Below are positions 6,589 through 32,089 of a DNA stretch of 35,231 nucleotides, piece after piece; the stretch's first letter is position 1; every line of letters starts with the position of its first letter. Source of the DNA: Candidatus Poribacteria bacterium (GTDB lineage Bacteria; Abyssobacteria; SURF-5); contig JACRIR010000129.1 of the NCBI GenBank assembly GCA_016215705.1, positions 1 through 35,231 of the forward strand. The letters are read 5' to 3'. A program made the position numbers and the translations under genes. Under the pieces are notes generated by a model. The model was given only the letters and a program-made list of their open reading frames with translations, was not told where the DNA came from and ran no database searches.

Positions 6589-6603
6589 GCAAGAATCAGT
6601 CCA
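6589..6603 (-). promoter_or_regulatory. Sigma-54 (-24/-12) promoter for the PEP-CTERM gene
   Basis: Read on the minus strand the site is TGGACT-GATTC-TTGC (consensus TGGCAY-N5-TTGC). GG and GC have the required 10-nt separation. Transcription would start near 6577, about 20 nt before the ATG. Confidence 0.65.
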
Positions 6604-6761
6604 AGAGAAAGGAAACTTGCGGCGAGATTGAGATATTTATAATCGCTTGGCGTAAAAGGAGATAGGTAAGCATATGGCGCTATTGGAGGCTCCCAGAGAA
6701 GACCGATAGACGAATCAATTGTCTCTTATTTACGACATGGCCGGAGAAATGTTCGGAAAGA

Positions 6762-6838
6762 GGGTCATTTTAGGCGGCATAGCAACCGACCCTGCCGGGA
6801 GGCGGGATCGGTTGCTCGTAAGAAGTCAAGAATGATCC
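6762..6838. other. Strong stem-loop downstream of the 6857-9226 gene
   Basis: AGCAACCGACCC (6781-6792) pairs with GGATCGGTTGCT (6805-6816), with one mismatch, around a GC-rich loop. An outer, looser pair (GGGTCATTTT near 6762-6771 and GAATGATCC near 6830-6838) extends it. It starts 18 nt after the stop of the minus-strand gene and could act as a transcription terminator or 3'-end stabiliser. There is no T-tract, so intrinsic termination is unproven. Confidence 0.45.
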
Positions 6839-6856
6839 TGTGAACGCCGCTTTATA

Positions 6857-9226
6857 TCATTTCATTTTCATAAAGATTGCCACTTCTGCGCTAGTGTGGA
6901 TATCGACCGGGATGGCATCGGTCCAACCCTTTACCCTCCAGTACAGCCACTGTTTCTTTGGGAGGGAATTCCACGTTTTTAGTGGCATGGCAAAAGGCGG
7001 ATAAGGCGGTGTGCGAAGCGCCGGACTCACATAGAGCATACTTGTAAAGTTTGCATCACGCGCGACCTCGATTTGGAAGATGGTATTGCAGGCAATTGTC
7101 CAACTCATGTACGGCCTTTTGTAGAGCTTTAGACCGTTGCCTGGCGTAACCAGATGCATGTTGTCGCAGGCCATCACGTAGTTGGTCTTCTGTATGGAAT
7201 CGGTTCCGCACAGACCCGAGACCGTCAGAGTGACCGTGTATATACCGATAGATGTGTAGACATGCACAGGGTTGGGTTCGGCACTGGTCGCGCCGTCTCC
7301 GAAGTTCCACTGCCATTGCGTGATCGTTCCGGCGGATGAGTCGAAGAACGGAATGCTTTGGCCGATTTCCCCTTTGGTAATGGCTGCAATGAAATCCGCA
7401 TAAGGAGGCAAACATTCGTACCCGACTTGTATCCCGCCGGAGGCGTTCACTTGAATCTCGATGGTGGGCGGAGTGGTCTCATAGTGATCGACCCTCGAGC
7501 CTTCGACCATCCATCCATTCGAGTCAACTGCATTTCGCCACAGTACGGTGGGCTCGGCCACGTACTGGTATATCTGGTATGCCTCCAAACCGGAATCCGG
7601 AACACCGTTTTGATCGCTATCCACCAACTCGACTCCCGGAAGAGGCAGCTTCACGGTTACAGGGTTGTCGAACACATTCGCCGGTTCGAGGTTGATTGGA
7701 ATTCCGACAGGAGCCGCGATATCAAGAGCCGGAATCTCGTCAACCGGACCAAACCTTGGAACAACAGGCTCGCCTGATCTATACCTGATCTTTGCCCCTT
7801 CAAGAAGCTCATCGTTGACGGAGTCGGAAGCGGGGATCACCGTCAACTCATAAGCGCCACCCTGGGGTCCCGAGGATATCTGGATCGGTCTGTGCTGAAC
7901 AGCCCACTGGTGATCGGCCGCGCTTTCAATCCGGAAAGTCTCCGTGTAGTTCAGCGGATTTCCGGCGAGGTCGGAAAGTGTGAGACCCACAGTAACGACC
8001 GCGTCAAAGGCAAATCCTGAGAGATTTCTGTATGCCACATCGATTTCACGCGAATCGCCCGGGTCAACTTCGCGGACTGCGGCGGGCACGGACGCGCCAT
8101 TCACGGCCAATTGGATGCTCCCCGCGTCTATCCCTATATCATCGAGCACCCGTATCACTACTCCCGTATCCGACGGAATGCGAGGCGTAGGGCCAACATC
8201 ATTATTCGTTCCCTGACCATCATATGGATGCGTTTCGATCGGGTCGACGTAAGGCGCAGAGCCGTCCACCGTGACCGCTACACTGTTGCTCGTCGCCACC
8301 GCAACGCCATTTGCTATTTGCTGAGCGAGTACGTTCGCCGAACCCTCTGACTGGCCTGACACATTGCCGCAGGCGCTGCAAGAGGCTACGCCGACGGGCT
8401 GAGAGTCATATCTGACCAGACATGACATGTCCATCTCGATTGGATTTCCAATCGAAGGTGTGAATACGCCGGAGACAGAAAGCTGAGAGCTCGTCCCTGG
8501 CTTGAGCGTAGTTTGAGAAGGAGAGAGAACGAGGCCGGCGACTACCGGAACACTGGCCGATGAATACGGGTCGGTTCCCATTGCTTCTTCCAATGAGTCC
8601 GGATATCCGTCATCGTCAAAATCACCGTCCGACGTTATGATGGTGTACTGACTGCTCATTATGGCGCTCTGGTTTGTTGCCTGGTCAATCGCAAAGAACC
8701 GCAAGGTAAGACTTCCGGTTATCGAAATTGGCGAGCTATACACAGGAGAACTTTGAGTGGGGACACTCCCGTTTGTTGTGTAGTATATTGTTGAGCTTTC
8801 GCTGGCGCTTAGCGTAACCAGGACGCTTTGGCCATAAGTCCCTCCGGCCGGGCTTGCCATCACCGTAGGACTGGTGAGGTCTACAACTGCGGCGTCAGAG
8901 GCGGCCGAGAGATCGCTGAAGTTGCCGGATACATCGGCAGTCCTCAATTTGTAGTAGTACCTACCGCCATTAGTCACCGAAGTATCGGTCCATGATGTTG
9001 CGCTCAGAACACCGGAGTGGGCCTTGGAATATGGACCGCTGTATGAGGAAGACCTGTGAACTTCGTAACCTTGAACATCCGGCTCCGGATTTGCCGCCCA
9101 AGAAAGCGAGATGGACGAGTGATTGACGTACACGTCTGCCAAAGCGATTGGCGACAAACAAGCAGAAGTAAGAAGAACAGCAACTAAGCCCGGAATCCAT
9201 CCGCGATGAGTGTTGCGAGATAGCAT
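6857..9226 (-). CDS. Large secreted modular protein: FN3, chitobiase-C-like, TSP3/Big cassette, unknown module, PKD
   Basis: A 789-aa extracellular protein made of adhesion-type modules. After a signal peptide come: an FN3-like domain (PDVQGYEVHRSS...YYYKLRTADVSGN); a chitobiase/hexosaminidase C-terminal-like domain (STIYYTTNGSVPT); a calcium-binding thrombospondin-3 type stretch (DGDFDDDGYPDSLEEAMGTD); a Big-like domain (LVLSPSQTTLKPGTS); a ~270-aa region shared with the neighbour at 9776-11464; a PKD domain (WQWNFGDGATSAEPNPVHVY); and a final FN3-like domain. No PEP-CTERM or other anchor is visible. The frame is open to ATG at 9271, but ATG at 9226 has GGAG at good spacing and gives a cleaner signal peptide (MLSRNTHRGWIPGLVAVLL). 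A consensus sigma-54 promoter lies at 9328-9342. Confidence 0.88.
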   Translation of the reverse strand: MLSRNTHRGWIPGLVAVLLTSACLSPIALADVYVNHSSISLSWAANPEPDVQGYEVHRSSSYSGPYSKAHSGVLSATSWTDTSVTNGGRYYYKLRTADVSGNFSDLSAASDAAVVDLTSPTVMASPAGGTYGQSVLVTLSASESSTIYYTTNGSVPTQSSPVYSSPISITGSLTLRFFAIDQATNQSAIMSSQYTIITSDGDFDDDGYPDSLEEAMGTDPYSSASVPVVAGLVLSPSQTTLKPGTSSQLSVSGVFTPSIGNPIEMDMSCLVRYDSQPVGVASCSACGNVSGQSEGSANVLAQQIANGVAVATSNSVAVTVDGSAPYVDPIETHPYDGQGTNNDVGPTPRIPSDTGVVIRVLDDIGIDAGSIQLAVNGASVPAAVREVDPGDSREIDVAYRNLSGFAFDAVVTVGLTLSDLAGNPLNYTETFRIESAADHQWAVQHRPIQISSGPQGGAYELTVIPASDSVNDELLEGAKIRYRSGEPVVPRFGPVDEIPALDIAAPVGIPINLEPANVFDNPVTVKLPLPGVELVDSDQNGVPDSGLEAYQIYQYVAEPTVLWRNAVDSNGWMVEGSRVDHYETTPPTIEIQVNASGGIQVGYECLPPYADFIAAITKGEIGQSIPFFDSSAGTITQWQWNFGDGATSAEPNPVHVYTSIGIYTVTLTVSGLCGTDSIQKTNYVMACDNMHLVTPGNGLKLYKRPYMSWTIACNTIFQIEVARDANFTSMLYVSPALRTPPYPPFAMPLKTWNSLPKKQWLYWRVKGWTDAIPVDIHTSAEVAIFMKMK

Positions 9227-9327
9227 TGGCTTTTCTCCATCGTTCATATCCATTGCCGCATTCATGTCCATACCTGACCCGTCTATCGTTTATCATTAGT
9301 AACGTACTATTCGTATTTAGCTTAATG

Positions 9328-9342
9328 GCAAAGCCTGTGCCA
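9328..9342 (-). promoter_or_regulatory. Sigma-54 (-24/-12) promoter for the 6857-9226 gene
   Basis: The minus strand reads TGGCAC-AGGCT-TTGC, an exact match to TGGCAC-N5-TTGC. Expected transcription start is near 9316, some 90 nt before ATG 9226 and 45 nt before ATG 9271. Confidence 0.8.
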
Positions 9343-9381
9343 GTCTCTCTTTAAGCCAGGTAACGATTCGAGATAGGTACT

Positions 9382-9406
9382 TAACTCTTTGTTTTATATG
9401 ATGTTA
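9382..9406 (-). promoter_or_regulatory. Candidate activator-binding site, TAACAT-N15-GTTA
   Basis: On the minus strand TAACAT (9401-9406) is followed after exactly 15 nt by GTTA (9382-9385). The centre is about 78 bp upstream of the predicted sigma-54 start. The same pattern with the same spacing precedes the sigma-54 promoters at 18133 and 32075. Assignment to the NtrC-like regulator is inference. Confidence 0.45.
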
Positions 9407-9775
9407 TATCTTGGCATTCCCACCCATTGAGACGCGCTCACCTCCTTGAAAATTAGTCTCTAAGCATACATAGATGTAGCGGGCATTACGGAAACGTAAG
9501 ACACCCACGGGCCATTCTTGCCCGGGGTATTTACTCGGGCGGGGTTTAGAAGCTTTGGTGGTTGCGGGACATAGGAACAACGCTCCCGCTGAGTGATTCA
9601 AGGTCAAAGCGGGCACACAAATTCTTTTCAGATTTCTGCGGATGAGAATTCTACCTTCAGGTGGGGTGGACCTTCGAGGGGACTTTCTATAGGTGTGGGG
9701 GATGAATCTGTGCTTCGGGCTGGGGAAGAGCCCTATTCCGGATTAGGACAGACCTGAATCTCTGCTCTGTTCCTA
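9407..9775. other. Intergenic region between the two modular secreted-protein genes
   Basis: No convincing gene. On the minus strand there is a perfect-looking ribosome site AAGGAGGTGAG (complement of 9437-9447) before a 7-codon ORF ending at 9404 (MGGNAKI), which sits upstream of the sigma-54 promoter. Several GC-rich short hairpins occur (for example CGGGC/GCCCG near 9506-9525). GGGCT/AGCCC at 9718-9734 lies 42 nt after the stop of the 9776-11464 gene and could be a weak terminator. Confidence 0.4.
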
Positions 9776-11464: not shown

Positions 11465-11505
11465 ATTTAGCGCAATGGGGACATGCTTACAACAATCGTT
11501 TGTGT

Positions 11506-11535: not shown

Positions 11536-11624
11536 TCAAAAATAAAAGGATTCACCTATTGATTAAAGATGGGGCAACTTGATGTGGGCACTGATGGAGT
11601 TCTTGGGGGATTATGCAGGAGGGA

Positions 11625-11824: not shown

Positions 11825-12799
11825 TCAGCCTCGTTCCATACGCGCCCTTTCGGGTATACGCGCCCTTTCGGGCAAGAACGTGTTAAGCGCTTTCGGTTCG
11901 ACTTTTGGAACAGTTCTTCTCTTGACGGCCTCCAGCAGCAAGTTTATGATGAGCAGCACGGTTTGAAGTATTATTTTCAGGTCCAAAAGGAGGCAGGTGT
12001 GCCGGATGTATTCTTTGTCGTGAGCAAGCTTCCTTCGGACGTCCTCGATGGATTCATCGTGCTCTTGGCGAACCTGGGCAAGACCGGTGATGCCTGGTTG
12101 GACGATGAGGCGATGACGATAGCCTTCAATGGTACTGCAAAGGCGAGCAATAAAATCGGGCCTTTCGGGCCTCGGTCCGATGACGCTCATCTCACCGCGA
12201 AGGACATTAAGCAATTGGGGCATCTCGTCAATATGGGTCTTGCGAATATAGTAGCCGATCCTGGTAACGCGGGGATCATGGTCGCCGGTAGACCAGGCAG
12301 CTCCCGTCTGTTCTTCCGCGTTCACTTTCATGGAACGAAACTTGTAAATCGTGAAAGGCCTTCCTCCCAGATTCTCCCCGCGGCGAACGTCCTTTCTTGG
12401 ATCGCAGGAGGAGAGCAGTTCGGCTCGATCTGATTTCGCGCGCCGCTCCTTTCTTCTCCTGTTCAGGCCCACTCTTTTCTGTTTATAGATCACGGGACCC
12501 GGAGATTCCAGTTTAATGAGCAATGCGACCACCAGGAGCAAAGGAGCGCTTAGCGTGAGGATCATAAGGGCGAAAGGTATTTCCCACAAGAATTTCACGC
12601 GCGCATAGTCTTCTCCCTTCTGTCTCGAAAGCCAGAGGACCGAAGCCACTGCGGCGACCGTCGCCACGACCAGCGCCAGAATGCGTAGCGCTGTCACTTG
12701 CCCGTGGGCCATCTTGTGAAAATCATAGACAAGATAAGGTGGCGTTCCGAAAAGGACCAGAAAACCGATACCCAATCTGAAGTGTTTGATAGTTTCCAT
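11825..12799 (-). CDS. Polyprenyl-phosphate sugar-1-phosphate transferase (exopolysaccharide initiation)
   Basis: Membrane enzyme that starts exopolysaccharide repeat-unit synthesis by moving a sugar-1-phosphate from a UDP-sugar to undecaprenyl phosphate (bacterial sugar transferase family, monotopic PGT type). Two hydrophobic segments lie at the N-terminus (~8-60), then the re-entrant helix (ALMILTLSAPLLLVVALLIKLESPGPVIYKQKRVG), the motif FTIYKFRSMKVNAE, the catalytic Asp-Glu pair in THIDEMPQLLNVLRGEMSVIGPRPERP, and PGITGLAQV. Between KRVGLNRR and GGRPFTIYKF there is a ~30-residue highly charged insertion. The C-terminus ends in a duplicated PERARI/PERARM tail encoded by two 18-bp direct repeats (11837-11873). 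The PilZ gene lies 22 bp upstream on the same strand, suggesting an operon. Confidence 0.93.
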   Translation of the reverse strand: METIKHFRLGIGFLVLFGTPPYLVYDFHKMAHGQVTALRILALVVATVAAVASVLWLSRQKGEDYARVKFLWEIPFALMILTLSAPLLLVVALLIKLESPGPVIYKQKRVGLNRRRKERRAKSDRAELLSSCDPRKDVRRGENLGGRPFTIYKFRSMKVNAEEQTGAAWSTGDHDPRVTRIGYYIRKTHIDEMPQLLNVLRGEMSVIGPRPERPDFIARLCSTIEGYRHRLIVQPGITGLAQVRQEHDESIEDVRRKLAHDKEYIRHTCLLLDLKIILQTVLLIINLLLEAVKRRTVPKVEPKALNTFLPERARIPERARMERG

Positions 12800-12821: not shown

Positions 12822-13229
12822 CTATGTTGACAATGCCAATTCCTGATTCAACTGGACGGCTACGCCGCTAAAATCATCGAGCGGAAGAATCCTCGCTGCA
12901 TTTTCCACCCTCAGAACTTTACCTTCGCCTTCAAGCTTTGGAGGCATTCCAACCCCTGCCCAGTCGGCAGAAAGGTGGATAGACAGAAACACGTTGTCCC
13001 CCCGCTCCGTCTTGGTCTGAGTGTAAAAGTATATCCCTGTCGGAGTGATATCCCTCGTGTATCCAATCTGGGGTGGAGAATCGTCATTTCTTTTGGCTTT
13101 GTGCTTGAAAACTGTGAACAAGCTCGTTTCGATTCTGGAATACCCACGTCTGTTGGGTTGGCCCACCAAGGCATCTGTGTGTTTGTCCATTATATGTGTT
13201 TCTTCGTTTCTGATTGCGTGCTCGACCAC
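12822..13229 (-). CDS. PilZ-domain protein (c-di-GMP receptor type)
   Basis: A small soluble single-domain PilZ protein. The c-di-GMP-binding arginine motif is present as RRGYSR (~residues 27-32), and the second motif D/N-x-S-x-x-G appears as DITPTG (Thr for Ser). The remainder is the PilZ beta-barrel (GKVLRVENAARILPLDDFSGVAVQL). It lies just upstream of the sugar transferase, so a plausible role is c-di-GMP control of exopolysaccharide synthesis. Start is uncertain: the GTG at 13229 sits only 2 nt from GGGAGGA, which is too close, while ATG 13190 (MDKHTDAL) has only a weak site. A possible promoter is at 13267-13295. Confidence 0.8.
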   Translation of the reverse strand: MVEHAIRNEETHIMDKHTDALVGQPNRRGYSRIETSLFTVFKHKAKRNDDSPPQIGYTRDITPTGIYFYTQTKTERGDNVFLSIHLSADWAGVGMPPKLEGEGKVLRVENAARILPLDDFSGVAVQLNQELALST

Positions 13230-13999: not shown

Positions 14000-15655
14000 T
14001 TGAGGGCAAGTCCCCGACAGGTCATGAAGAGACGATCTACTTTCATTCCACGTATCAGTATTAGCAACGTTCTCGATGGCGCCAAGACCGCTCAGGAAAT
14101 ACTGTCGTATTGTCTTAAGGAATTGCGTGCTGAATCGGGGTCGCTTTTCGCCATAGAAGAAAACAGTGAGACGCTATGCCTGTTGGGAGCGATCGGCGCC
14201 CGCGAGAATCACCATTGCGGCAAGAGCATAAGAATCGGCGACGGAGTGTCGGGTTTTGTGGCCTCCACCAAGCGGCCACTTCTCGTTGCAGATTCGTGTA
14301 GCCAGAAGGGCATCACGCCCCGGCAGGGCAGACATCCGGTAGAGACTTTCATGTCGTGCCCCGTGTTGAAGGACTCTTCGGTGTTGGGGGTGATTAACGT
14401 TGCAGGGCGCAAAACCGGCCGCGCTTTTTCAAAAAAAGACTTGCAGAAATTGCAGTCGATAGCAGCGGGGTGCGCAACAATGCTTGATCGAATGCTTTCC
14501 TATCGCTCGACCTGTCAGATGCAGGAATGCGTTACTGACGGAGCAATCGACGCTCATGAGAACTATGAGAGCATCGAGAGACAGTTAGAGGACTTGAGGA
14601 CCTATAATGCCATTATCGTGCAGCACCTTTCCGATTACATTTTTGTGTTTGATCGCCATCTAAACATAATCCATTGCAACAAAGACTCGGATTTTGCGCT
14701 TGGCAGCGGCAATAAGAAAGACGTTACGATGAAGGGCCATTGCGTTCTTGACCTTCCTTTTGACGTCGATCGGGGTGAATTGAAGAAAAGTCTGGAGAAG
14801 ATGATAGTGGAACACATGTCTTTCGGCTTGAAAGACGTGAGGCTCAAGGGATCTGATTTTCACATCGCAAATCTATCTTTTTCTCCGTTTTTCTCTCCCG
14901 AGGGCAACATTCTCGGAGGGTTGCTTTTCGTAGAAGATGTTACGAAGACTTATGAGATGCGACAACGCTTGAATGAGGCTGAAAGATTCTCGTTGATTGG
15001 CAGCTTGACCTCGATGATAACTCATGAAGTCAACAACCCGCTTGATGGGATTATGCGTCTCATTAACATCTCGCTTGGGCAGATCAAAGACGATGACCCC
15101 ACGAAGGAATACCTGGTCGAGGCGCAGAAGGGGTTACAACGAATTGCATCACTCGTCAGGTCGCTTCTTAGCTTCTCGCGCAAGAGCATATCGCTCGACG
15201 CCGAAGTGATTCCTCTGAATCGCCTCGTTGACAGCGCGATATCGACCATCAGAAACAGGAACGATGTCAAGGATATTTCGTTTCACGTGAAGTTGGCGAC
15301 GGAGAGCCCGAACGTGAGAACGAACGACTTCTACCAGGTGTTCAGTAATCTGTTGTCAAACTCGTTTGATGCAATCACTCGGGAACAAGGGAACATTGGA
15401 ATAGAGACACAATTAGATGACGATGAACTCCACATAATCGTCGAGGACGACGGCTGCGGAATCCCGAAACACTTGCAGTCACGCATATTCAAGACGTTTG
15501 TGACCACGAAGGAGCGCGGAAAGGGCACCGGGCTGGGGCTGGCGATTGTCAAGAAAATCGTCGAGAAATATGACGGTCAAATAGCAGTGAAGTCCGATGA
15601 AAATATCGGCACCCGAATGCATCTCACCTTCTCTCGCTGCAAGCTGACTTCGTAG
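14000..15655 (+). CDS. Soluble GAF-PAS sensor histidine kinase
   Basis: Cytoplasmic sensor kinase; no membrane segment is visible. Residues ~20-170 form a GAF domain (ESGSLFAIEENSETLCLLGAIG, GDGVSGFVASTKRPLLVAD). A PAS domain follows (~205-320, LSDYIFVFDRHLNIIHCN). The HisKA box is SLTSMITHEVNNPLDG with phospho-acceptor His342. The HATPase part has VFSNLLSNSFDAI, DDGCGIP and GKGTGLGLAIVKKIV. This is the NtrB-like class that pairs with NtrC-type regulators, and such a regulator starts 19 bp downstream. The TTG at 14000 has GGAGGA at good spacing; ATG 14024 is the alternative. It recalls the PrsK/PrsR pairs of PEP-CTERM loci, but PrsK has membrane segments and this does not. Confidence 0.92.
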   Translation: MRASPRQVMKRRSTFIPRISISNVLDGAKTAQEILSYCLKELRAESGSLFAIEENSETLCLLGAIGARENHHCGKSIRIGDGVSGFVASTKRPLLVADSCSQKGITPRQGRHPVETFMSCPVLKDSSVLGVINVAGRKTGRAFSKKDLQKLQSIAAGCATMLDRMLSYRSTCQMQECVTDGAIDAHENYESIERQLEDLRTYNAIIVQHLSDYIFVFDRHLNIIHCNKDSDFALGSGNKKDVTMKGHCVLDLPFDVDRGELKKSLEKMIVEHMSFGLKDVRLKGSDFHIANLSFSPFFSPEGNILGGLLFVEDVTKTYEMRQRLNEAERFSLIGSLTSMITHEVNNPLDGIMRLINISLGQIKDDDPTKEYLVEAQKGLQRIASLVRSLLSFSRKSISLDAEVIPLNRLVDSAISTIRNRNDVKDISFHVKLATESPNVRTNDFYQVFSNLLSNSFDAITREQGNIGIETQLDDDELHIIVEDDGCGIPKHLQSRIFKTFVTTKERGKGTGLGLAIVKKIVEKYDGQIAVKSDENIGTRMHLTFSRCKLTS

Positions 15656-15674
15656 CGCTCATCTCCAAAAACAT

Positions 15675-17066
15675 ATGGCACGCAACAAATCGAAGAACGC
15701 ACATATTCTGATAGTGGATGACGACCCTCTTGTCAAGTACTCCCTTGAAGAGTTGTTGAGTCTGGAAGGTTACCCTGTCAAGTCCGTCTACGACGCCGAG
15801 TCAGCTTTAGCGACGCTGCAAAGCACTCCCTGCGACGTTGTCATAGCCGACATCAACTTGCCCGGGGTCAATGGGTTCGACCTGTTGACGGCGGTGAAAG
15901 ACAAGTACCCCGACATCGTTGTGATTCTGATAACCGGCTACGGCACAATCGAGGACGCAGTCAAGGGAATCAAGCTGGGCGCATACGAATACATCACGAA
16001 GCCGCTCAATGATGACGAGGTCAAGATTTCAATCGAGCGAGCCGTCGAGCAGAAGAACCTTAGACTCGAGAATCTGGAGCTCAAGAGAAAACTGGCGGAG
16101 AAGTTTCAGTTCGAGAATCTGATCGGCAGTCACAATGAGATGCAAAAGGTTTTTCATCTCGTTTCGGTTGTGGCCGATTCCGAGGCGACGATTCTGATAA
16201 ACGGCGCAAGTGGGACGGGCAAATCAACCATTGCGCGGGCAATTCATTACCACTCGCGACGGAAGGAAAAGCCTCTCGTGGAGATAAGCTGTGGGGCGCT
16301 TTCCGAGAACTTGCTCGAGAGCGAACTCTTCGGGCACGTGAGGGGGGCGTTCACAACAGCTTTGACCGATAAGGTGGGCAAAATCGAGAAAGCGGAGGGA
16401 GGAACCGTCTTCTTAGACGAGATTGATACGCTCAGCCTGCGGCTGCAGGTCAAGCTTCTGAGGTTCCTTCAGGACAAGAAGTTCGAAAGAGTGGGCAGCA
16501 CGGATACAATACACAGCAACGTCAGGGTGATCGCGGCAGCCAATCGCGATCTTGCGCGATGTGTTGGGGAGGGCGAGTTTCGAGAAGACCTTTTCTACAG
16601 GTTGAATGTGGTGTCGATGCGTTTGCCGCTTCTTAAAGACCATCTCAGTGACATTCCAACGCTCGTAGACCACTTTATAGCAAAGTACAACAAGATCAAT
16701 TCAAAGAAAGTGCGCGGAATCAGCAACGAAGTGATGAAGCGGTTCTTGTCATGGCCGTGGCCTGGAAACATCCGGGAGCTCGAGAATACGATTGAAAGGG
16801 CCATCATCCTTTGCGACGGGGAACATGTCGGCTTCGATCTTCTGCCCGACTATCTTCATGCAAACGATAAGATTGAGACGTCCGATGGGTTAGTGCCGCT
16901 GGAGGTTGCCCTGGACATAGCCGAAAAGAAGGCAATATCGAAGACGCTCCAGCATTTCAAAGGTAATCGGAACAAGACAGCGGAGTTTCTCGAGGTCAAC
17001 CGCACCACTCTTTATCAGAAGATGAAAAGGCACGCATTGTTGGACGTGAACTACAAGGAGACATGA
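15675..17066 (+). CDS. NtrC-family sigma-54-dependent response regulator with variant GAFTTA loop
   Basis: Receiver-AAA+-HTH activator of sigma-54 RNA polymerase. The receiver (~10-125) has acidic pocket Asp15/Asp16, phospho-site Asp59 (IADINLPG) and Lys109. The AAA+ domain (~145-380) has Walker A GASGTGKS (177-184), Walker B TVFLDEID (Asp248-Glu249) and FREDLFYRLNV with arginine-finger residues. The C-terminus (~415-460) is a Fis-type helix-turn-helix (NRNKTAEFLEVNRTTLYQKM). The sigma-54-contacting GAFTGA loop reads GAFTTA (224-229), with Thr228 encoded by ACA at 16356-16358. It is co-transcribed with the kinase and is the obvious candidate to drive the four sigma-54 promoters in the window. 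Its 3' end overlaps the convergent deacetylase gene by 16 bp. Confidence 0.93.
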   Translation: MARNKSKNAHILIVDDDPLVKYSLEELLSLEGYPVKSVYDAESALATLQSTPCDVVIADINLPGVNGFDLLTAVKDKYPDIVVILITGYGTIEDAVKGIKLGAYEYITKPLNDDEVKISIERAVEQKNLRLENLELKRKLAEKFQFENLIGSHNEMQKVFHLVSVVADSEATILINGASGTGKSTIARAIHYHSRRKEKPLVEISCGALSENLLESELFGHVRGAFTTALTDKVGKIEKAEGGTVFLDEIDTLSLRLQVKLLRFLQDKKFERVGSTDTIHSNVRVIAAANRDLARCVGEGEFREDLFYRLNVVSMRLPLLKDHLSDIPTLVDHFIAKYNKINSKKVRGISNEVMKRFLSWPWPGNIRELENTIERAIILCDGEHVGFDLLPDYLHANDKIETSDGLVPLEVALDIAEKKAISKTLQHFKGNRNKTAEFLEVNRTTLYQKMKRHALLDVNYKET

Positions 17067-17908
17067 GGCGGCTGCGCGATAATGTCGCGCAGGCCGGCGA
17101 ACGAGCCTGAAGCAAGGAGGCGGCGGAGTTTAACCTCCGTTGTTGCGAGGTTCACATAGTGGCGGAATCTGGGAAGGGGCGGAAGAGGAAAGCGAGGCTG
17201 GGCGGGGTCCAGTTCCCATGGGTGGAGGTAGATGACAGCGGGATGGCCTTCGGAATTCATGCGTCGGATTGCAAAAGCGGAAAACCATAGCGGCGCCAGG
17301 CGAAAATATCCGCCTCCTGCGACGGGAAGATTAAGTCCGAAACACCTGAGAGTGAGCGGTGGCGCCTCGGTGATTGTGGCGCCGTTCCGGAGCTTTACCA
17401 CCTCGATGTAGCGACTCCAATCGGGGAACCCGTAGCGGTCATGCCTCACGGGGAAAATACTGGAATCGTAGTCGAAACCTTCCTCAGCCAGAATGTCGAG
17501 AGCCCACAGAGTCCTTTCCGTGATCGAAAATGTCGGCGCCCTGTAGCCGACAATCTTGTCTCCCGTGATATCCTCGAGGATCGCTTTCGCCCTGCGAATG
17601 TCCTGCCTGAATTCCTCGGGAGTCTGCTCATAGATCATTCGATGCGCGTAGCCATGGCAGGCGATTTCATGGCCGTGCCGCCGAATTTCTCGCACCACAT
17701 CCGGAGTACGCTCAGCAATCCAACCAAGGACAAAGAATGTGGCTCTGATACTATGAGCGTGGACTATCTCAAGCAGTTTGCAAACGCTCTGCGCTACTCG
17801 CAGCTCAAATCTAGGCCAATCGTCAAACTCGATGAGAGGCCTTAGCGTCTCCACTTGAAAATAGTCTTCAATGTCAAACGTTATAGCATTGGTTGTGTGA
17901 TTATTCAT
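17051..17908 (-). CDS. XrtA-type polysaccharide deacetylase (NodB/CE4 family)
   Basis: A 285-aa deacetylase of the kind found in exosortase-A exopolysaccharide loci; it should remove N-acetyl groups from a matrix polysaccharide. Near the N-terminus is ITFDIEDYFQVE (catalytic and metal-site Asp pair), then ATFFVLGWIAERTPDVVREI and the metal-binding HGHEIACHGYAH. Next come YRAPTFSIT and YDSSIFPVRHDRYGFPDWSRY, the latter characteristic of this subfamily, and the C-terminal VIYLHPWELDPAQPR. There is no signal peptide, as is usual for this subgroup. Start ATG at 17908 has no strong ribosome site. The gene is transcribed away from the secreted repeat protein at 18264 and converges on the regulator gene. 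Confidence 0.93.
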   Translation of the reverse strand: MNNHTTNAITFDIEDYFQVETLRPLIEFDDWPRFELRVAQSVCKLLEIVHAHSIRATFFVLGWIAERTPDVVREIRRHGHEIACHGYAHRMIYEQTPEEFRQDIRRAKAILEDITGDKIVGYRAPTFSITERTLWALDILAEEGFDYDSSIFPVRHDRYGFPDWSRYIEVVKLRNGATITEAPPLTLRCFGLNLPVAGGGYFRLAPLWFSAFAIRRMNSEGHPAVIYLHPWELDPAQPRFPLPPLPRFRHYVNLATTEVKLRRLLASGSFAGLRDIIAQPPHVSL

Positions 17909-18090
17909 GGTTTGCGATTTTTTCAGATTGCGCGTAGAATAGGGGCGACTTGTACGCTCGATATTCTCGCGGCAAGAGGCCGAGTCCGGGTTTGGAAGAC
18001 ACAGGTTTGAGATTTCCGGCGGGCAGATTCGTCAGTATCCACCGCCAATTCTGTAATCAGGATTCTCTGAAGGTATATCGTGGGCGTTCG

Positions 18091-18132: not shown

Positions 18133-18148
18133 TGGCATTTGTCTTGCT
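18133..18148 (+). promoter_or_regulatory. Sigma-54 (-24/-12) promoter for the 18264-19214 gene
   Basis: TGGCAT-TTGTC-TTGCT matches TGGCAY-N5-TTGCW with correct spacing. Expected start near 18159, giving a ~105-nt leader to ATG 18264. Confidence 0.8.
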
Positions 18149-18263
18149 TGTTACTTCGACATTGGTATAATCTCAGTTGTCAACAGAATCCTTCGAGGGT
18201 TCAGCAGATACACCGGGATCGTTGAGGGATTTTCCCCTGAAAGGACACATGGAGGACTTAGCA

Positions 18264-19214
18264 ATGGCCAAAAGGATACTGTTTGTGCTCGGATGCATAC
18301 TGGTCCTTTGGAGCGCAACATCTCCCACGGTGGCGCTGGCAGACGCCTATGTGGTTATCTTCAGCAAGACTGACCAATCATTGACCGGGGTGTCTTATTC
18401 TGCCTCCGGAACCGGGACGATTCACCACACAATCTGTGATCTTGCGTCCGGCACGGGTTCTTACGACGTGTACCAGAATTCAGTTCTCCTCTCGGCAGTC
18501 TCACCCGTTCCTGTGTCTTCCACCGGAACGATTTCTTTTGACACGAATAGCGGCGGCTCTTTTTCCGTTTCTCAGCATGCGGCTGGACCGGATGTCACCC
18601 CGCCCTCGGGCACAGTAGTGGTAAACAGCGGCGCCTCATACGTGTCTTCAACATTAGTGACCCTGACCCTGTCGGCTGTGGATTCGGGCAGTGGTATGGG
18701 TTCCGGCGCGGAAATGCGCTTCAGCAACGACAACGTGACGTGGTCGACTCCTGAATCTTACGCAACCACTAAGTCGTGGACACTCTCCGGCGGAGACGGC
18801 GCAAAGACTGTTTACGCGCGATACAAGGACGCCGCGGGCAACTGGATGTCAAGCTCGGCAAGTGACTCAACAATACTGGACACTGCGCCACCTTCCGGAT
18901 CGGTATCGATAAACGCGGGCGCCGCATATGCGCATGCAACCGTTGTGACCCTTACCCTTTCGGCAACGGACTCGGGGAGCGGTATGGGCTCCGGGGCACA
19001 AATGCGCTTCAGTAATGACAACGTGACGTGGTCAACTCCTGAATCTTACGCAGCCACCAAGTCGTGGACGCTCACGAGCGGAGACGGCGCGAAGACAGTT
19101 TATGTGAGATACAAGGATGTAGCAGGCAACTGGACGTCAAGCACAGTGAGCGATTCGATCACTCTCGACATTTCGCCGCCCTCGACGCCTGCGCCTCCGC
19201 TGATTGGTCACTGA
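18264..19214 (+). CDS. Secreted protein with two 96-residue Ig-like tandem repeats
   Basis: Exported protein of 316 aa, function unknown. The signal peptide MAKRILFVLGCILVLWSATS ends near ALADA. A non-repeated domain (~30-110) follows, then two nearly identical repeats starting PPSG and containing DSGSGMGSGA, MRFSNDNVTWSTPESYA and YKDxAGNW; this type occurs in bacterial surface proteins (Big/OmpL47-like). At DNA level the repeats are offset by 288 bp. A third copy starts (ISPPS) but the protein stops ten residues later, with no anchor. The frame is open from 18177, but ATG 18264 has GGAGGA at ideal spacing and gives the signal peptide directly. Confidence 0.87.
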   Translation: MAKRILFVLGCILVLWSATSPTVALADAYVVIFSKTDQSLTGVSYSASGTGTIHHTICDLASGTGSYDVYQNSVLLSAVSPVPVSSTGTISFDTNSGGSFSVSQHAAGPDVTPPSGTVVVNSGASYVSSTLVTLTLSAVDSGSGMGSGAEMRFSNDNVTWSTPESYATTKSWTLSGGDGAKTVYARYKDAAGNWMSSSASDSTILDTAPPSGSVSINAGAAYAHATVVTLTLSATDSGSGMGSGAQMRFSNDNVTWSTPESYAATKSWTLTSGDGAKTVYVRYKDVAGNWTSSTVSDSITLDISPPSTPAPPLIGH

Positions 19215-19362: not shown

Positions 19363-20937
19363 TCACACAGCATCGGGCGAAGCAACTCTAAGGTCTCGCC
19401 TGCATATCTTTCCGGAAGAAGTCTTGGGCAACCCCGAAACGAATTCGACGTGTTTTGGGACCATGAAGCTCTCAAGCCGGCGGCTGCAATGCGTTGCGAC
19501 ATCCCGTTCCGTGAGGGCCATCCCATCTTTCAGGACGACAAACGCCTTGACTGCCTCCCCAAGAATATCGTCCGGAATCCCCACAATAGCCACTTCCAAC
19601 ACTTGAGGGAGTTCATATATTATATGCTCTACTTCTGTGGGAGCGACTTTTTCCCCGCGACTCTTGATAATGTCGTCTTTGCGTGAGACAAAATACAGAT
19701 AGCCGTCGTTGTCCATTCGGAAGAGGTCGCCGGTATATAGGACGCGCTCACCGGGATACCTTCCCTCTCGCAGGGCTCTTTTGTTCTCTTCCGGCATCTC
19801 CCAATAACCCATCATAACATGTGAACCGCGAACCACCAGTTCTCCGACGACCTCGGGTCCAACACGGTTCCCGTTTTCGTCCACGATATATGTCTCCTGA
19901 TTGGGGATGCCTTTCCCGACCGATGCCGGACGCTTATCCAGATCGTCGGGGGGCATATAGGAAACCCGTGTACATTCGGTTACTCCGTACATCGAGTAAA
20001 TCATCGCCCGTGAGAACATCTCTTTGAGTTGCAGGATATGACGGGGCGGCAGCGCGGCGGCTGCATTTGTGATATATCGAACAGAATCAAAATCGCGACG
20101 GCACACATCTTTTAGCGCAAGCAACATTGCAAAAATCGTTGGAACACCGGCGAAACCAGTGACTTTCTCCTGCTTAATGACCTGGATGGTCTGATAAGGG
20201 TATGCGAAGGACTTCTCCAAGACAAGCGTGGCCCCCGTCCGGCTGGATGTCAACACTTGAGACAGACCATAGCCGAAAGATAGTGGCAAGACATTCAGGA
20301 TGATATCCGATTCCACGTTCTTGAGATAGGTTGTGATGGAGGACGTGGCGGAGACCATTGCTCTGTGGGTGAAACACGCTCCCTTGGGAAAGCCGGTCGT
20401 CCCGGAGGTATAAATAATGGCGGCCAGGTCGAGGTCGATAATATCAGGAGCCGGAGGCGTAGCAGAAGAGGTCTCCAGTATCTCTTGCATCGAAAGGTTT
20501 TTCTTGCCTGCTTGCGGGATATTTTTCAGATCACCACAAACCACTGCAAATTTGAGAGAAGGCACGTCTCTTTCGACATCCTGCAAGAGGAGGACGTATT
20601 TGGAATGGGTGACGAAGCCGACTGCCCTGCAGTTATTGAGGATGAAACAGAGTTTTTGCGATCTGGTCTGGGGGTTTATCGGCACAAAAGCGGCGCCCGC
20701 CTTGACAATGCCAAAAATCGAGATTACGGCCTCCGGGGAGTTGTCGAGAAAGACCGCTATGCGGTCGCCTTTTTCCACGCCATGGGCTCGCAAAGCATTT
20801 GCCAACTGGTTTGCCGCGGCATCTATCCGTGCATACGCGCTGCGTTGTTTTCCGCATATCAGGGCTGTCTTTTCCGGAGCCATATTGGCGCTTCGCTCCA
20901 GGAAATCATTCAGCAATGTTCCCTGAACCCTTTTCAT
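19363..20937 (-). CDS. AMP-forming acyl-CoA ligase, exosortase A system-associated type
   Basis: ANL-superfamily ligase that adenylates a carboxylic acid and transfers it to CoA; a member of this kind is regularly encoded beside exosortase A, with unknown substrate. Core motifs: AAIIYTSGTTGFPKGACFTH (P-loop-like), MYGVTECTR, LYTGDLFRMDNDGYLYFVSRKDDIIKSRGEKVAP split over the hinge, and the C-terminal catalytic Lys region PKTSSGKICRRDLR. At 524 aa it is full length. The frame is open to a TTG at 21015, but ATG 20937 (MKRVQGTLL) follows GGAAG at good spacing and avoids overlap with EpsI, so I chose it. It is the last gene of the exosortase-EpsI-ligase run. Confidence 0.93.
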   Translation of the reverse strand: MKRVQGTLLNDFLERSANMAPEKTALICGKQRSAYARIDAAANQLANALRAHGVEKGDRIAVFLDNSPEAVISIFGIVKAGAAFVPINPQTRSQKLCFILNNCRAVGFVTHSKYVLLLQDVERDVPSLKFAVVCGDLKNIPQAGKKNLSMQEILETSSATPPAPDIIDLDLAAIIYTSGTTGFPKGACFTHRAMVSATSSITTYLKNVESDIILNVLPLSFGYGLSQVLTSSRTGATLVLEKSFAYPYQTIQVIKQEKVTGFAGVPTIFAMLLALKDVCRRDFDSVRYITNAAAALPPRHILQLKEMFSRAMIYSMYGVTECTRVSYMPPDDLDKRPASVGKGIPNQETYIVDENGNRVGPEVVGELVVRGSHVMMGYWEMPEENKRALREGRYPGERVLYTGDLFRMDNDGYLYFVSRKDDIIKSRGEKVAPTEVEHIIYELPQVLEVAIVGIPDDILGEAVKAFVVLKDGMALTERDVATHCSRRLESFMVPKHVEFVSGLPKTSSGKICRRDLRVASPDAV

Positions 20938-20974
20938 CTTCGGTAACTTCCTTTCCTGCGCCCGGCAAGGACCC

Positions 20975-21619
20975 TTACTTAAGGTATATCGGCAGCAGCG
21001 GACACACGTCTGCAATAAAGGCTTTTAGCGCCTGTGTATTCTGAACGCGATTATCTTCACCGGCGCGGGTCGAGAATCGAACCAGGGCTGCCCCCGCAGT
21101 TCTCCCCTTGAGATGTTCCATCATAAGATGAAAGCGCATGGCCGGATAGCTGGGTGTCATCAAGTCTCCGGAGACAAAGAAATACATAACATGTTCATCA
21201 CTGCCGCGTTGTTTCAGCACGATTTTATTTGCTGCCAGGGTGGCCTTTTGCGCGTTGGGCAGGGCTATGATTTCCCTCTCTTCCGCCACGATCACCGAGC
21301 CACTGCCGACCATGCATCCCTCGGGCATGTGGAAATAAACGCGATACTGAGGATAATACACGACGGCAGCGGTGATGCTTACTCCGCGCGGACCTACGTA
21401 TTCCCGCATCAGCACATTCGGAGTTTCTAGAATCTCTTTTATGGATTGCTCTACGGGAATTTCCGTACCTGAGAAATCTCCGATGACCAGGGGGAGTTCA
21501 TCGAGTGGCGCAGCATTCGTCGGATGCGCACGGACCGTAACTTTGACAAGCGTCGTCAGGACTGCGGTGACCCCCAATAGGACTACTACTATCGAGAGCC
21601 GTGTTTTGAAAGACGCCAT
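20975..21619 (-). CDS. epsI: EpsI-family exosortase-associated protein
   Basis: Periplasmic membrane-anchored partner of exosortase (DUF3485/EpsI family). One N-terminal hydrophobic helix (SIVVVLLGVTAVLTTLVKV, ~9-27) is followed by the EpsI domain. The family's short His-x-Pro-Glu-x-Cys signature is visible as FHMPEGCMVGSG, and YYPQY and FFVSGDLMTPSY are also typical. EpsI is fused to the C-terminus of many exosortase A proteins; here it is separate. Its ATG lies inside the exosortase gene (31-bp overlap), which suggests translational coupling. Confidence 0.9.
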   Translation of the reverse strand: MASFKTRLSIVVVLLGVTAVLTTLVKVTVRAHPTNAAPLDELPLVIGDFSGTEIPVEQSIKEILETPNVLMREYVGPRGVSITAAVVYYPQYRVYFHMPEGCMVGSGSVIVAEEREIIALPNAQKATLAANKIVLKQRGSDEHVMYFFVSGDLMTPSYPAMRFHLMMEHLKGRTAGAALVRFSTRAGEDNRVQNTQALKAFIADVCPLLPIYLK

Positions 21620-22461
21620 TCGAATAGTCTTCCTATTCCAAGAAGCAAGACAAGCGCAAGAACAAACACCACGAAACCGGATAGATCATGCACAGAGCCG
21701 GTCGCGGCGCTCGATCCGTACCGATGGGCTATGAGTGAGAGCGTCAATACCCGCACTATGTTGGAGAACAGCGCGATGGGGATAGACACTATCAGCATTG
21801 ATATGAACACATGCAAAGGGACCGTGAGAAAGTACGCATAGAGCGACCCAAGCGCCAGGAGCGAAATCAGAGACCGCAGTCCGCTGCACGGATTCCCTAT
21901 GACGAGAGAAGCGGATGGAAAGTGCAACTGGAAGCCTTCCTGGATCACGGGAATTCCAAGGAGCTCCACGATTTTTGCGCCGGATGTCGTAACAAAGAGT
22001 TTCATGGGCACGCCGATGGCATCAAGGGCGGCGCCGGGCAAGGGAAACATGAAGACGAGGAAACCCAGCGGGAAGAGAAGCTCTCTCGTAATTCGATATC
22101 CGAACAAGTATAGGGACAGGCCGAAAACAAGCGCAAGAATCGAGAAGCCGGATGTGAAGTAAACGTCGAGGAGAACGCTCAGCAAGTGCGCTGCCAACGC
22201 GAATAGAATGAGAACAAGGCCCATGAGAGAGGACTCCCATTGAAATTCGCGCAATCGCTCTCTGCGCCGCCAGATCAGATAAGCTGATATGAATGGTATG
22301 AGCAGCGCATGAGAATAATATGAGTCCGGCGCCATGGCGCGTTCCCAGAGCCAGACAAATGTGGACCAGTAAGCTGCCCCGAGAAGCGCCAGAGCAAGCG
22401 CCAAAAACAGCGCCAAAGGAGTTCGTGAAAGCGGAGAGATGTGATGCGCTCTTTCTTGCAT
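21589..22461 (-). CDS. Exosortase (PEP-CTERM transpeptidase)
   Basis: Integral membrane cysteine transpeptidase that cleaves PEP-CTERM signals and probably attaches the proteins to a surface glycan or lipid carrier. About eight hydrophobic segments cover the 290 residues. The proposed catalytic triad is intact: Cys192 (NPCSGLRSLISLLALG), Arg237 (SNIVRVLTL) and His258 (GSVHDLSGFVVF). The sequence is of general exosortase type; I cannot assign the subclass confidently, although the neighbouring EpsI, deacetylase and acyl-CoA ligase point to the XrtA type. Start ATG 22461 uses the AAAGGGGG ribosome site, which is one arm of a hairpin repeat. Confidence 0.95.
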   Translation of the reverse strand: MQERAHHISPLSRTPLALFLALALALLGAAYWSTFVWLWERAMAPDSYYSHALLIPFISAYLIWRRRERLREFQWESSLMGLVLILFALAAHLLSVLLDVYFTSGFSILALVFGLSLYLFGYRITRELLFPLGFLVFMFPLPGAALDAIGVPMKLFVTTSGAKIVELLGIPVIQEGFQLHFPSASLVIGNPCSGLRSLISLLALGSLYAYFLTVPLHVFISMLIVSIPIALFSNIVRVLTLSLIAHRYGSSAATGSVHDLSGFVVFVLALVLLLGIGRLFEWRLSKHGSR

Positions 22462-24366: not shown

Positions 24367-24394
24367 TGGCTGTCGGGCATTGCCAAGAAATCCT

Positions 24395-25312
24395 TTATTT
24401 CGTCGTTGACACATAGACAGGAGTGTAAATGCTCACGTCTCCGTTGAGCGATTTGATAAGAAACACATAGTTTTGGTCTGCGTATTCGTCCTTGCCCGGA
24501 AAATCGAGATACATTCTTATGTCTGCCGAGCTGCCCGGCGCGAGGTCGAACTCCGGACTTGTCCGGAGAGTGAGGAGCGATGGCGCCGGACACTTACGAT
24601 AGCCTGCTGAAATGCCCGAGTACGAATCCGGCACATCGATGCATTCTATTTTGATATTCTTCGACTCTTTTCCCTTATTCGTGATCTTTAGAACAACGCC
24701 GACCTCTTTTTCCATGTCAAACGTCTTTCCAATCTTTACGTCATGAAGCGATATCTTTTCGGGTTCGACAACAAAGTCGAAATCGCCAACTGCCTTATCC
24801 AGTGATTTCGTGTCGCACTCCTCCGGCGCGATGTCAAACAAGAGCTTGCTCTTCAGTCCGACACCTATAGACGTGCCGATTGTGCGCGACCATATGAAAA
24901 CCTGGAATTTCTTCCCGAGAAGTTCTCTCTCATTGGGTATGGTAACGAAAATGTCGGTCGTGCCGTGCTCATTGGGAGGAATTGTGAATAGATTCTTTTC
25001 CAGGCCTATCCATGAGAGGTCCGGAATCGGCTCGTAGCCGTTCTTCAACTCGCTTTCAGCAGGCAACATCGGATCAATTCTCAATTCTACGGGACCAGCG
25101 CTGGTGTTGAGTATGGCCAGGGGAAGCTTCGCTGTTTCCTCCATGCTGTACCTGTGACCGATGCAAAGATTCGTTACGGTGACTTCTCCGAAACGGGTAC
25201 TCAAGCCGGCGGCAAACACAGACGTCCGCCCTAAGGCCAAGAAACCGAGGACCAAGGCGACGCCCAGCGCAATACGTCCACATTTTCCACTATTGGAAGA
25301 ATCTATGTGCAT
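24395..25312 (-). CDS. Secreted protein with two Ig-like domains (DUF916-like), function unknown
   Basis: A 305-aa exported protein. The signal peptide covers residues ~14-35 (ALGVALVLGFLALGRTSVFA). Two beta-sandwich domains follow: ~40-170, with PNEHGTTDIFVTIPNERELLGKKFQVFIW, and ~185-300, with VGVVLKITNKGKESKNIKIEC and FDLAPGSSADIRMYLDFP. The pattern of a proline/asparagine loop followed by an 'exported, integration-limiting' strand pair resembles DUF916 and pili-chaperone-like proteins; this is a fold guess, not a family assignment. It sits in a same-strand cluster between the small secreted protein and the beta-helix gene, so it may help assemble or anchor them. Confidence 0.75.
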   Translation of the reverse strand: MHIDSSNSGKCGRIALGVALVLGFLALGRTSVFAAGLSTRFGEVTVTNLCIGHRYSMEETAKLPLAILNTSAGPVELRIDPMLPAESELKNGYEPIPDLSWIGLEKNLFTIPPNEHGTTDIFVTIPNERELLGKKFQVFIWSRTIGTSIGVGLKSKLLFDIAPEECDTKSLDKAVGDFDFVVEPEKISLHDVKIGKTFDMEKEVGVVLKITNKGKESKNIKIECIDVPDSYSGISAGYRKCPAPSLLTLRTSPEFDLAPGSSADIRMYLDFPGKDEYADQNYVFLIKSLNGDVSIYTPVYVSTTK

Positions 25313-26049: not shown

Positions 26050-26075
26050 AAAGCCGCAAACGCAAGAAAAAGACT

Positions 26076-28137: not shown

Positions 28138-28170
28138 TTTGTGTTCTTCGCCCTCGAATAGCGCAGCGCG

Positions 28171-28185
28171 GCATAACCGCAGCCA
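28171..28185 (-). promoter_or_regulatory. Weak sigma-54-like site upstream of the DUF362 gene
   Basis: The minus strand reads TGGCTG-CGGTT-ATGC: correct GG-N10-GC spacing but weaker flanking bases. No TAACAT-N15-GTTA element was seen nearby. The rest of 28138-28400 holds no supported gene. Confidence 0.25.
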
Positions 28186-28400
28186 AAAGGAAGAGAATCT
28201 ACCGAAACCACAGACCCAAGCTGATGCACGGGACTATTTTGGAAAGGCGCTTCACGAATCACCCTCCAAAGGAAATTGCGACACAAACTCAAGAAGAGAC
28301 AGTATTACGGATGCGAAGTTGCCGGGGCGCTATCTCGTATTCTATCGGTTTGAGTGTGATGCAAGTTTTAGGCCAACACCGTGATGCCCATCTCGTCGAA

Positions 28401-29693: not shown

Positions 29694-29799
29694 TTCAGGT
29701 GTCCTATTTGTTCTTTCCCTGTTTTTCGAGGCGTGTTTCTTCAAAAAGGGGAAAGAAATCGGTCAAGACTGCAAGTGCGATCTCAAGAGAGAACGGAGG

Positions 29800-30603: not shown

Positions 30604-30727
30604 AAATCGTGCAAAGTGGAGAAAAGAAGAAGATTGTATGGAAGAGGCGGCTCTACTCTCGGTCTTTGCGCGTTTCTCCGGCGCTCAGGCTGCGCACGCC
30701 ATCCCACTGAAGGATTGAATGGCTCAT

Positions 30728-31981
30728 CTATTGACCTGCGAGTTTGATGGCGTTTGTGATGTCTTCCTCGGTTAACTCCGTCATCGGATTTGCCGGAGGT
30801 GTGGTTCCTTTCATATACCAATAGACAGCCTTGTTCAAATCGTCTCGCGTCAGTTTTCCCGCCTGCCAGCGGTCCACAACACTTGCGAGCCATTTTGGAG
30901 ACCGCGCAACGGTGATTGGATAGCCCGCGCTGTTGCGCACTCCGTTGCTGTCGACCACATACAGATACGCCGTTCCATAAGGCAGGAAGCCTGTATGCCC
31001 CGTGACTGTTATCGAAGTGTTCGACCACGCGGACGGAACCTGTGTTTGCAGATTGGTGCAGGCTTCATATGTGGCGGCGTTGCCGATCACCACTCGAGCC
31101 CAACTATTATCCAGATATACATCGTCAAAGTAAGTTACGGCCTCACAGTTTGTAGGGCATCCTGGTGTATTTGCGCAGTATTCACCTATCTCAAGAGTAT
31201 TCCAAAGGTACGAATGCGTCGTTATGACGTTTCTTAGATTCAGCACATTTACCATCGGTGTATCCAGCCCTCCGTGCCAAATCGAGATCGATCCATCCGC
31301 AACACCCGTAGAGGACTGTTCCGCTTGAATTTCAATTCTATACCATTTTTTCACCGGAGGCGACTGAATATGACCGTAGTAGTTGTCGGTGAGAGGATAT
31401 CCGTCGCCTACCTGGAGAGTATAGTAATGACTCGCCACAATTTTGGGATCTATTGGGTCCGCCGACCAGTGCTGATCTTTAAGGATAACGTAATCATCGG
31501 ATGAACTGGACAAACGCCAAAGCTTCATTGAATGTCTGGGGTCCTGAATTCCCCAGTCGAAGACGGCCCAGAAAGAGACAAATACTCGTTTTAGATTTGC
31601 GTCAGTCACCCAGTACAAGTCCGCCGTTCTGGCGCTGGTGTCGCAACCGCTCATGTCATGGCGTGAACAAAGAAGACTCCCCGGGAGATTGTTTCCATCC
31701 GCATACGTTATATTCCCCACTGCATAAGTCCAGCCCTTATTCTCTGTTTGCTGTGTATTTCTATCACCAACGATTGCGGCGCCCGGCTGGCTGTCCTCAA
31801 AATCCTTCCACAACAGAGGAACCGGCTGCGATTTGGTTCCGAAGCCTGTTCCGCTCACAGTTAGAGCGCCACCCTCTTGAAATTGTCCACTCACACCACT
31901 TATCTGCGGGTCTCCATAGGTGCTGACATTGGCAAGAATCAGCATGAGCAACAGCATCATGGAAGCGGTACTTTTAAGCAT
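30728..31981 (-). CDS. Secreted IPT/TIG plus lectin/lyase-fold protein under sigma-54 control
   Basis: A 417-aa exported protein. The signal peptide MLKSTASMMLLLMLILANVS is followed by an IPT/TIG-like Ig segment (PQISGVSGQFQEGGALTVSGTGFG). A ~250-residue region has the look of a concanavalin-type jelly roll (VFVSFWAVFDWG, WYRIEIQAEQSS, DGSISIWHGGLD, YFDDVYLDNSWARVVIG), as in heparan/alginate lyase-like proteins; no catalytic residues can be assigned. A second Ig-like part (AWSNTSITVTGHTGFLPYGTAYLYVVD) precedes a helical C-terminus (LTRDDLNKAVYWYMKGT). The frame is open to ATG 32026, but ATG 31981 has AAGGAGGGTGGAG right before it. A consensus sigma-54 promoter and two upstream sites precede it. 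Confidence 0.85.
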   Translation of the reverse strand: MLKSTASMMLLLMLILANVSTYGDPQISGVSGQFQEGGALTVSGTGFGTKSQPVPLLWKDFEDSQPGAAIVGDRNTQQTENKGWTYAVGNITYADGNNLPGSLLCSRHDMSGCDTSARTADLYWVTDANLKRVFVSFWAVFDWGIQDPRHSMKLWRLSSSSDDYVILKDQHWSADPIDPKIVASHYYTLQVGDGYPLTDNYYGHIQSPPVKKWYRIEIQAEQSSTGVADGSISIWHGGLDTPMVNVLNLRNVITTHSYLWNTLEIGEYCANTPGCPTNCEAVTYFDDVYLDNSWARVVIGNAATYEACTNLQTQVPSAWSNTSITVTGHTGFLPYGTAYLYVVDSNGVRNSAGYPITVARSPKWLASVVDRWQAGKLTRDDLNKAVYWYMKGTTPPANPMTELTEEDITNAIKLAGQ

Positions 31982-32073
31982 TACTCCACCCTCCTTACTA
32001 TCTGTCAGGATCATTCGTCTGTCCACTTTTGCGCTAGATTACATGGAATTACGAAATACTTGTGTCTCAGAGA

Positions 32074-32089
32074 TGCAATTCTAATGCCA
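32074..32089 (-). promoter_or_regulatory. Sigma-54 (-24/-12) promoter for the 30728-31981 gene
   Basis: The minus strand reads TGGCAT-TAGAA-TTGCA, an exact match to TGGCAY-N5-TTGCA. Expected start near 32063, giving an ~80-nt leader to ATG 31981. Confidence 0.82.

Follow-up and report, generated by a model that had tools for sequence, protein, structure and literature searches.

The window analysed here, 35,231 nucleotides in length, corresponds to the entire contig C55 of a genome (G000; 5.47 Mb, 270 contigs, 92% complete) that belongs to the family of Candidatus Abyssobacteria. It was compared with two sister genomes from other genera of the same family, G001 (98% complete, in which no exosortase was detectable) and G002, and with a further genome, G043, that carries a true PrsK and PrsR beside its exosortase. 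The locus combines exosortase machinery, a two-component system and four genes for exported proteins, designated A to D, with their upstream elements (Table 1). The exosortase scores 180.6 with the XrtA model TIGR03109, below the cut-off of 208. The products of A to D all have a hydrophobic N-terminal signal sequence and three of the four lack a PEP-CTERM signal, as the initial annotation had stated for most of them; for D no match was found in Pfam. The C-terminus of B (window positions 6857-7180) is formed by a domain of ca. 105 residues that recurs in more than 10 proteins of the sister genomes, that also ends the window protein encoded at 22528-24414, and that may be an ordinary Fn3-like or sorting domain.

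Table 1. Genes, sigma-54 sites and candidate enhancer elements of the window
Feature	Position	Strand	Details
Target A, PEP-CTERM protein (choice-of-anchor N)	5859..6557	-	
Sigma-54 site of A	6589..6603	-	TGGACTGATTCTTGC; two mismatches, GG-N10-GC kept
PEP-type (class 2) enhancer candidate of A	6720..6737	-	TGTCGTAAATAAGAGACA; 134 bp upstream of the A site
Target B, modular exported protein	6857..9271	-	chitobiase-C-like, Fn3-associated and PKD domains
Sigma-54 site of B	9328..9342	-	TGGCACAGGCTTTGC; exact
Class 1 enhancer candidate of B	9486..9499	-	TTACGTTTCCGTAA; ca. 157 bp upstream of the B site; one of seven in G000
Sugar transferase	11825..12799	-	
PilZ-like protein	12822..13229	-	weak match
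Soluble GAF-PAS histidine kinase	14000..15655	+	
NtrC-type response regulator	15675..17066	+	receiver, sigma-54 interaction and Fis HTH domains
XrtA-system polysaccharide deacetylase	17051..17908	-	TIGR03006, 363.5 bits (cut-off 276.2)
Half-site upstream of the C site	18049..18057	+	TTCTGTAAT; full-dyad score 4.9 in G000 (weak), 11.3 in G002
Sigma-54 site of C	18133..18147	+	TGGCATTTGTCTTGC; exact
Target C, exported protein with two repeats	18249..19214	+	frame open from 18177
AMP-forming acyl ligase, exosortase-associated type	19363..21015	-	TIGR03098, below cut-off
EpsI-family exosortase partner	20975..21619	-	
Exosortase (EpsH family)	21589..22461	-	TIGR02602, 180.4 (cut-off 105.55)
Target D, exported protein	30728..31981	-	frame open from 32026
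Sigma-54 site of D	32075..32089	-	TGGCATTAGAATTGC; exact
Weaker class 1 dyad upstream of the D site	32134..32151	-	GCTTGCAATAACGTATTA; score 12.1
Second, weaker class 1 dyad upstream of D	32200-32217		score 8.1

All four -24/-12 matches that had been proposed upstream of these genes were located, three of them with the exact consensus TGGCAYN5TTGC and that of A off-consensus with GG-N10-GC retained. Their coordinates agreed with those initially given for A and B, while the intervals 18133-18148 and 32074-32089 were each one base too long. The sites lie ca. 31 to 101 bp before the likely start codons. Another match, TGGCCTAAAACTTGC at 28361-28375, has one mismatch and occurs ca. 220 bp before the frame of a DUF362 protein (26215-28137), where the locus may have a fifth sigma-54 promoter.

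Sites with up to two mismatches were found 70 times in the window for 58 expected, which is close to chance, so that the site of A taken alone is not significant. Genome-wide scans with the exact consensus detected 67 sites in G000, 63 in G001 and 66 in G002, against 12, 14 and 15, respectively, for the reversed pattern used as control, and the density in G000 would predict 0.43 exact sites for the 35-kb contig, which has three (Poisson P ~0.01). The bases right after the core are biased (C/T, C/T, A/T, A/T), as is expected of real sigma-54 promoters, and the rpoN gene, whose presence had to be checked, was found on contig C40 (219.6 bits). In G002, the site of the A orthologue (TGGAGCGATTCTTGC) shows the same departure from the consensus as in the window, that of the B orthologue (TGGCATAAGTATTGC) is exact and that of the C orthologue is identical, while for D no matched orthologue was found in this genome. 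Chance matches at all four positions, with the genes using other promoters, would agree with the near-chance number of relaxed matches in the window, but this reading is very improbable given the ca. five-fold excess of exact sites over the control in three genomes, and it is largely refuted by the conservation of the sites between genera at orthologous positions. Judging from these patterns, the four -24/-12 sites are real and represent genuine sigma-54 promoters.

In G002, the order of the locus is kept for the sugar transferase, PilZ-like protein, kinase, regulator, deacetylase, C, ligase, EpsI and exosortase genes, and the orthologues of A and B sit together on contig C54, away from the contig that carries the regulator. 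Contig C54 also has sigma-54 sites before two exported-protein genes, X, which encodes NHL-type repeats, and Y, and sites before X and Y are found in all three genomes. X and Y, the latter encoding a small exported protein, adjoin genes for multihaem (CXXCH-rich) exported proteins (see L105:1332-8940, L028, L029, L166 and L167) and are located beside A and B in G002. In G001, the kinase, the regulator, the PilZ-like gene, the sugar transferase and B still occur together without a detectable exosortase, which indicates that the regulatory pair is not tied to the exosortase.

As initially described, the region 14000-17066 encodes a kinase with GAF, PAS, HisKA and HATPase domains and an NtrC-type regulator, and the kinase is soluble and lacks a transmembrane stretch (hydropathy of at most 1.19 over 19 residues vs 2.47 in a true PrsK). 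With the PrsR model TIGR02915 (cut-off 502.6), the regulator reaches 404 bits and ranks 12th in G000, and the kinase scores 75.5 bits with the PrsK model TIGR02916 (cut-off 300), for which the best score in G000 is 108.9. No regulator above the PrsR cut-off was found in G000, G001 or G002 and no kinase in G000 approaches that of PrsK, while the positive controls of G043 reached 541 bits for PrsR and 322 bits for PrsK. The local activator is not PrsR, and G000 is devoid of PrsK. The HTH of the local regulator is also less PrsR-like than those of many other regulators, and ca. 30 sigma-54 enhancer-binding proteins are encoded in G000. The most PrsR-like HTH is that of a regulator encoded on contig C68; this regulator has no orthologue among the G002 regulators compared and is thus a poor candidate for a conserved box. 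PrsR relatives were also sought among annotated plasmid proteins, with only generic NtrC-type proteins among the matches listed.

Inspection of conserved upstream blocks yielded the dyad TTACR-N4-YGTAA (class 1), which occurs in only seven copies in G000. Three of these lie less than 160 bp upstream of exact sigma-54 sites, for 0.02 expected, in the promoters of B, of an HDOD gene and of a PilZ-like gene. Of the copies in G002, one precedes the HDOD orthologue, and another lies upstream of a B-like gene on the contig that carries the exosortase; the sigma-54 site of this B-like gene is close to the consensus. Eight copies, taken from six promoters of G000 and G002 and none from G001, served to train a matrix that detected eight further G002 promoters with scores of at least 11 (0.49 in shuffles) and seven G001 promoters with scores of at least 9 (vs 1.13), with no excess among the remaining G000 promoters. 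Members of the class include X, D, C of G002, PilZ-like genes and genes for exported proteins. No good class 1 dyad was found for X of G000, and none occurs before the local kinase gene, which thus gives no sign of autoregulation. In G002, another activator gene adjoins a class 1 PilZ gene (L114).

Other candidate motifs were discarded: no 12-mer was common to at least four upstream regions when up to two mismatches were allowed, the gapped dyad AACA-N-GTTA seen in B, C, D and X also occurs at other promoters, and an initial scan of the genome for TTCYGTAATNNG gave no useful contrast (15 vs 9 in the control). On contig C265 of G000 (L065), a perfect 15-bp inverted repeat (CCGATTACAGAATTG-TATTT-CAATTCTGTAATCGG) with an adjoining third TTAC/GTAA dyad is located ca. 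210-260 bp upstream of the sigma-54 site of a large exported repeat protein gene, an arrangement that looks like a multi-site enhancer.

A second PEP-CTERM gene of G000, pepA, was found on contig C106 (L027, L073) with a near-consensus sigma-54 site; it is followed by a gene for a PrsT-like TPR lipoprotein, for which PrsT is the best family (135 bits vs 312, with an incomplete stretch aligned), and is divergent from a Wza-type exporter gene. A third PEP-CTERM gene is interrupted by the contig end. The sigma-54 sites before A and pepA, which are off-consensus in G000, are conserved in G002.

The dyad TGTY-N10-RACA (class 2) precedes A at the same place in G000 and in G002 (TGTTGCGAAACAAGAACA at -135), and occurs before pepA at -123 in G000 and as a relaxed copy at -122 in G002. 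Of these four PEP-CTERM promoters, three hence have the strict form and one the relaxed form, and the positions match between the two genera. Between -200 and -60, the strict form was found in none of the 162 exact sigma-54 promoters of the three genomes. The dyad recurs at -289 to -298 before wza, which encodes the EPS exporter, in all three genera, and no class 2 dyad was found for B, C or D. Among the PEP-CTERM genes of G043 with an assignable start, most have both a sigma-54 site and, ca. 95-130 bp upstream of it, a TGTC-N9-GACA-like dyad. The half-sites of this dyad resemble those of class 2 but the spacing does not, and in length it agrees with motif 1 of Haft et al. (17 nt; PMC1569441), which is reported to end in TTTACA. 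Because both dyads were recognised after inspection of upstream regions, their P values are optimistic, and the least biased evidence comes from the G001 test in the case of class 1 and from the positions before wza in that of class 2.

These observations bear on whether the local regulator could itself be the counterpart of PrsR, which would bind TGTY-N10-RACA and control A, pepA and wza while another activator serves the TTACR-N4-YGTAA set. Its location within an exosortase locus, as in G043, and the conservation of both the regulator and the wza box in all three genera would fit such a role, but this appears rather unlikely in view of its score and rank with the PrsR model, its poorly PrsR-like HTH and its persistence in G001.

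Elsewhere, sigma-54 sites precede genes that we take to encode PilT, PilB, PilM, FlgB, FlgF, DnaK, GroES, ClpB, ammonium transporters, a gas-vesicle-like protein, HDOD and PilZ-like proteins and a Wza-type exporter, and many of these sites are conserved among the sister genomes. Sigma-54 is a global factor here, and its occurrence before pilus, flagellar, chaperone, ammonium-transport, HDOD and PilZ genes does not agree with the secretome-wide matrix regulon proposed at first. The enrichment upstream of signal-peptide genes expected under that proposal was not significant in any of the three genomes: in G000, 12 of 43 sigma-54 targets were positive vs 43 of 183 neighbouring genes (P 0.34), with P values of 0.17 in G002 and 0.28 in G001. 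Since the predictor was a simple, crude rule that missed B, and since neighbouring genes do not represent a random genome sample, this amounts to an absence of support for enrichment and not to a disproof.

A control dyad, GTTTC-N5-GAAAC, was found upstream of four of the 162 sigma-54 promoters and of no others, ca. 100-124 bp upstream of dnaK in two genera (L014, L174), of clpB (L202) and of an Hsp20-like gene (L164), all four of which are presumably heat-shock chaperone genes. Its restriction to chaperone genes indicates that sigma-54 promoters here sort by enhancer into functional sets, and suggests an enhancer-driven sigma-54 heat-shock regulon. Exact sigma-54 sites occur at heat-shock chaperone genes in two or three genera (see also L054, L137 and L189 for groES, and L060 and L133 for clpB).

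The initial interpretation was that one circuit, with the local kinase and regulator acting on all four promoters, would co-ordinate a whole matrix proteome. Its first element, sigma-54 promoters on exported-protein genes, is retained here, and the four sites indeed lie within 25 kb of the regulator at a density above that of the genome, with every product exported and the locus order conserved in G002. Yet no enhancer is common to A, B, C and D, and A and B have different enhancer-like dyads common to different gene sets, so that the single circuit is not borne out by enhancer anatomy. The location of the A and B orthologues of G002 off the regulator's contig, the lack of enrichment for signal peptides, and the ca. 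30 activators of the genome, among which the local one is only 12th in PrsR similarity, also weigh against it, and we regard such a circuit as improbable.

Overall, the four promoters are probably divided between two circuits. All four would need an ATP-driven activator bound upstream, and their products are predicted to be exported surface or matrix proteins. A would belong to a PrsR-like circuit with TGTY-N10-RACA as enhancer, together with pepA of C106 and the promoter of the EPS exporter. B would be part of a surface-related circuit with TTACR-N4-YGTAA as enhancer, to which D and C would be assigned more weakly, which would also take in HDOD, PilZ and other exported-protein genes and which the local soluble kinase and NtrC-type regulator would most likely drive. 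We infer this last assignment because a strong class 1 dyad is located 5-6 kb from the regulator in two genomes, because its similarity to PrsR is low, and because regulator, kinase and B are kept together in the absence of the exosortase. Points against the two circuits are the weak dyad copies of D and of C in G000, the poor dyad of X in G000, the missing class 1 dyad before the kinase gene and the other activator beside a class 1 PilZ gene of G002. Taken as a whole, two circuits with the local pair acting on the class 1 set is the explanation that we favour, by a narrow degree of confidence. More tentatively, and with less confidence than in that explanation, sigma-54 of Abyssobacteria might run several separate programmes for envelope and stress functions, with a dyad and an NtrC-type activator specific to each, and with the local pair occupying the position of PrsK/PrsR, steering mostly non-sorted surface proteins and outliving the exosortase.

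These data extend sigma-54 control of PEP-CTERM genes past the proteobacterial set of Haft et al. and give two putative circuits explicit, testable candidate enhancer sequences. They also indicate that exported proteins other than exosortase substrates can be linked to the regulators of an exosortase locus, for which reason a PEP-CTERM regulon should not be deduced from gene neighbourhood alone.

Among known systems, AtoS and AtoC give the best NCBIfam scores for the local kinase and regulator (208 and 428 bits), but the cut-offs of 646 and 714 are far above, no acetoacetate genes are found near the local pair, and the kinase has a GAF-PAS input and no membrane segment. DVUA0057 of Desulfovibrio vulgaris is a plasmid-borne sigma-54 response regulator of an EPS operon for which DAP-chip enriched five predicted PEP-CTERM targets plus several other matches, with no binding motif validated (Rajeev et al. 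2011, PMC3333781); it is a parallel to the present case, but differs in its plasmid location and in that its binding was measured. In Aquincola tertiaricarbonis, an RpoN-dependent pepA is located next to prsT (PMC9850573), and C106 likewise has a PrsT-like TPR lipoprotein gene downstream of a PEP-CTERM gene with a -24/-12 promoter; measurements of the start site and of rpoN dependence exist for A. tertiaricarbonis, while the evidence for C106 comes from sequence. The closest parallel is the control of PEP-CTERM genes by PrsK, PrsR and sigma-54 (Haft et al. 2006, PMC1569441), in which a sigma-54 site and an upstream activator motif likewise precede PEP-CTERM genes, and adjoining kinase and NtrC-type regulator genes likewise occur near exosortase and EPS genes. 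Unlike in that system, the kinase here is soluble and not PrsK, the regulator falls under the PrsR cut-off, the candidate box spans 18 bp (N10) instead of 17, three of the four targets are devoid of PEP-CTERM, and the lineage lies outside the Proteobacteria, to which the motif was confined in that study.
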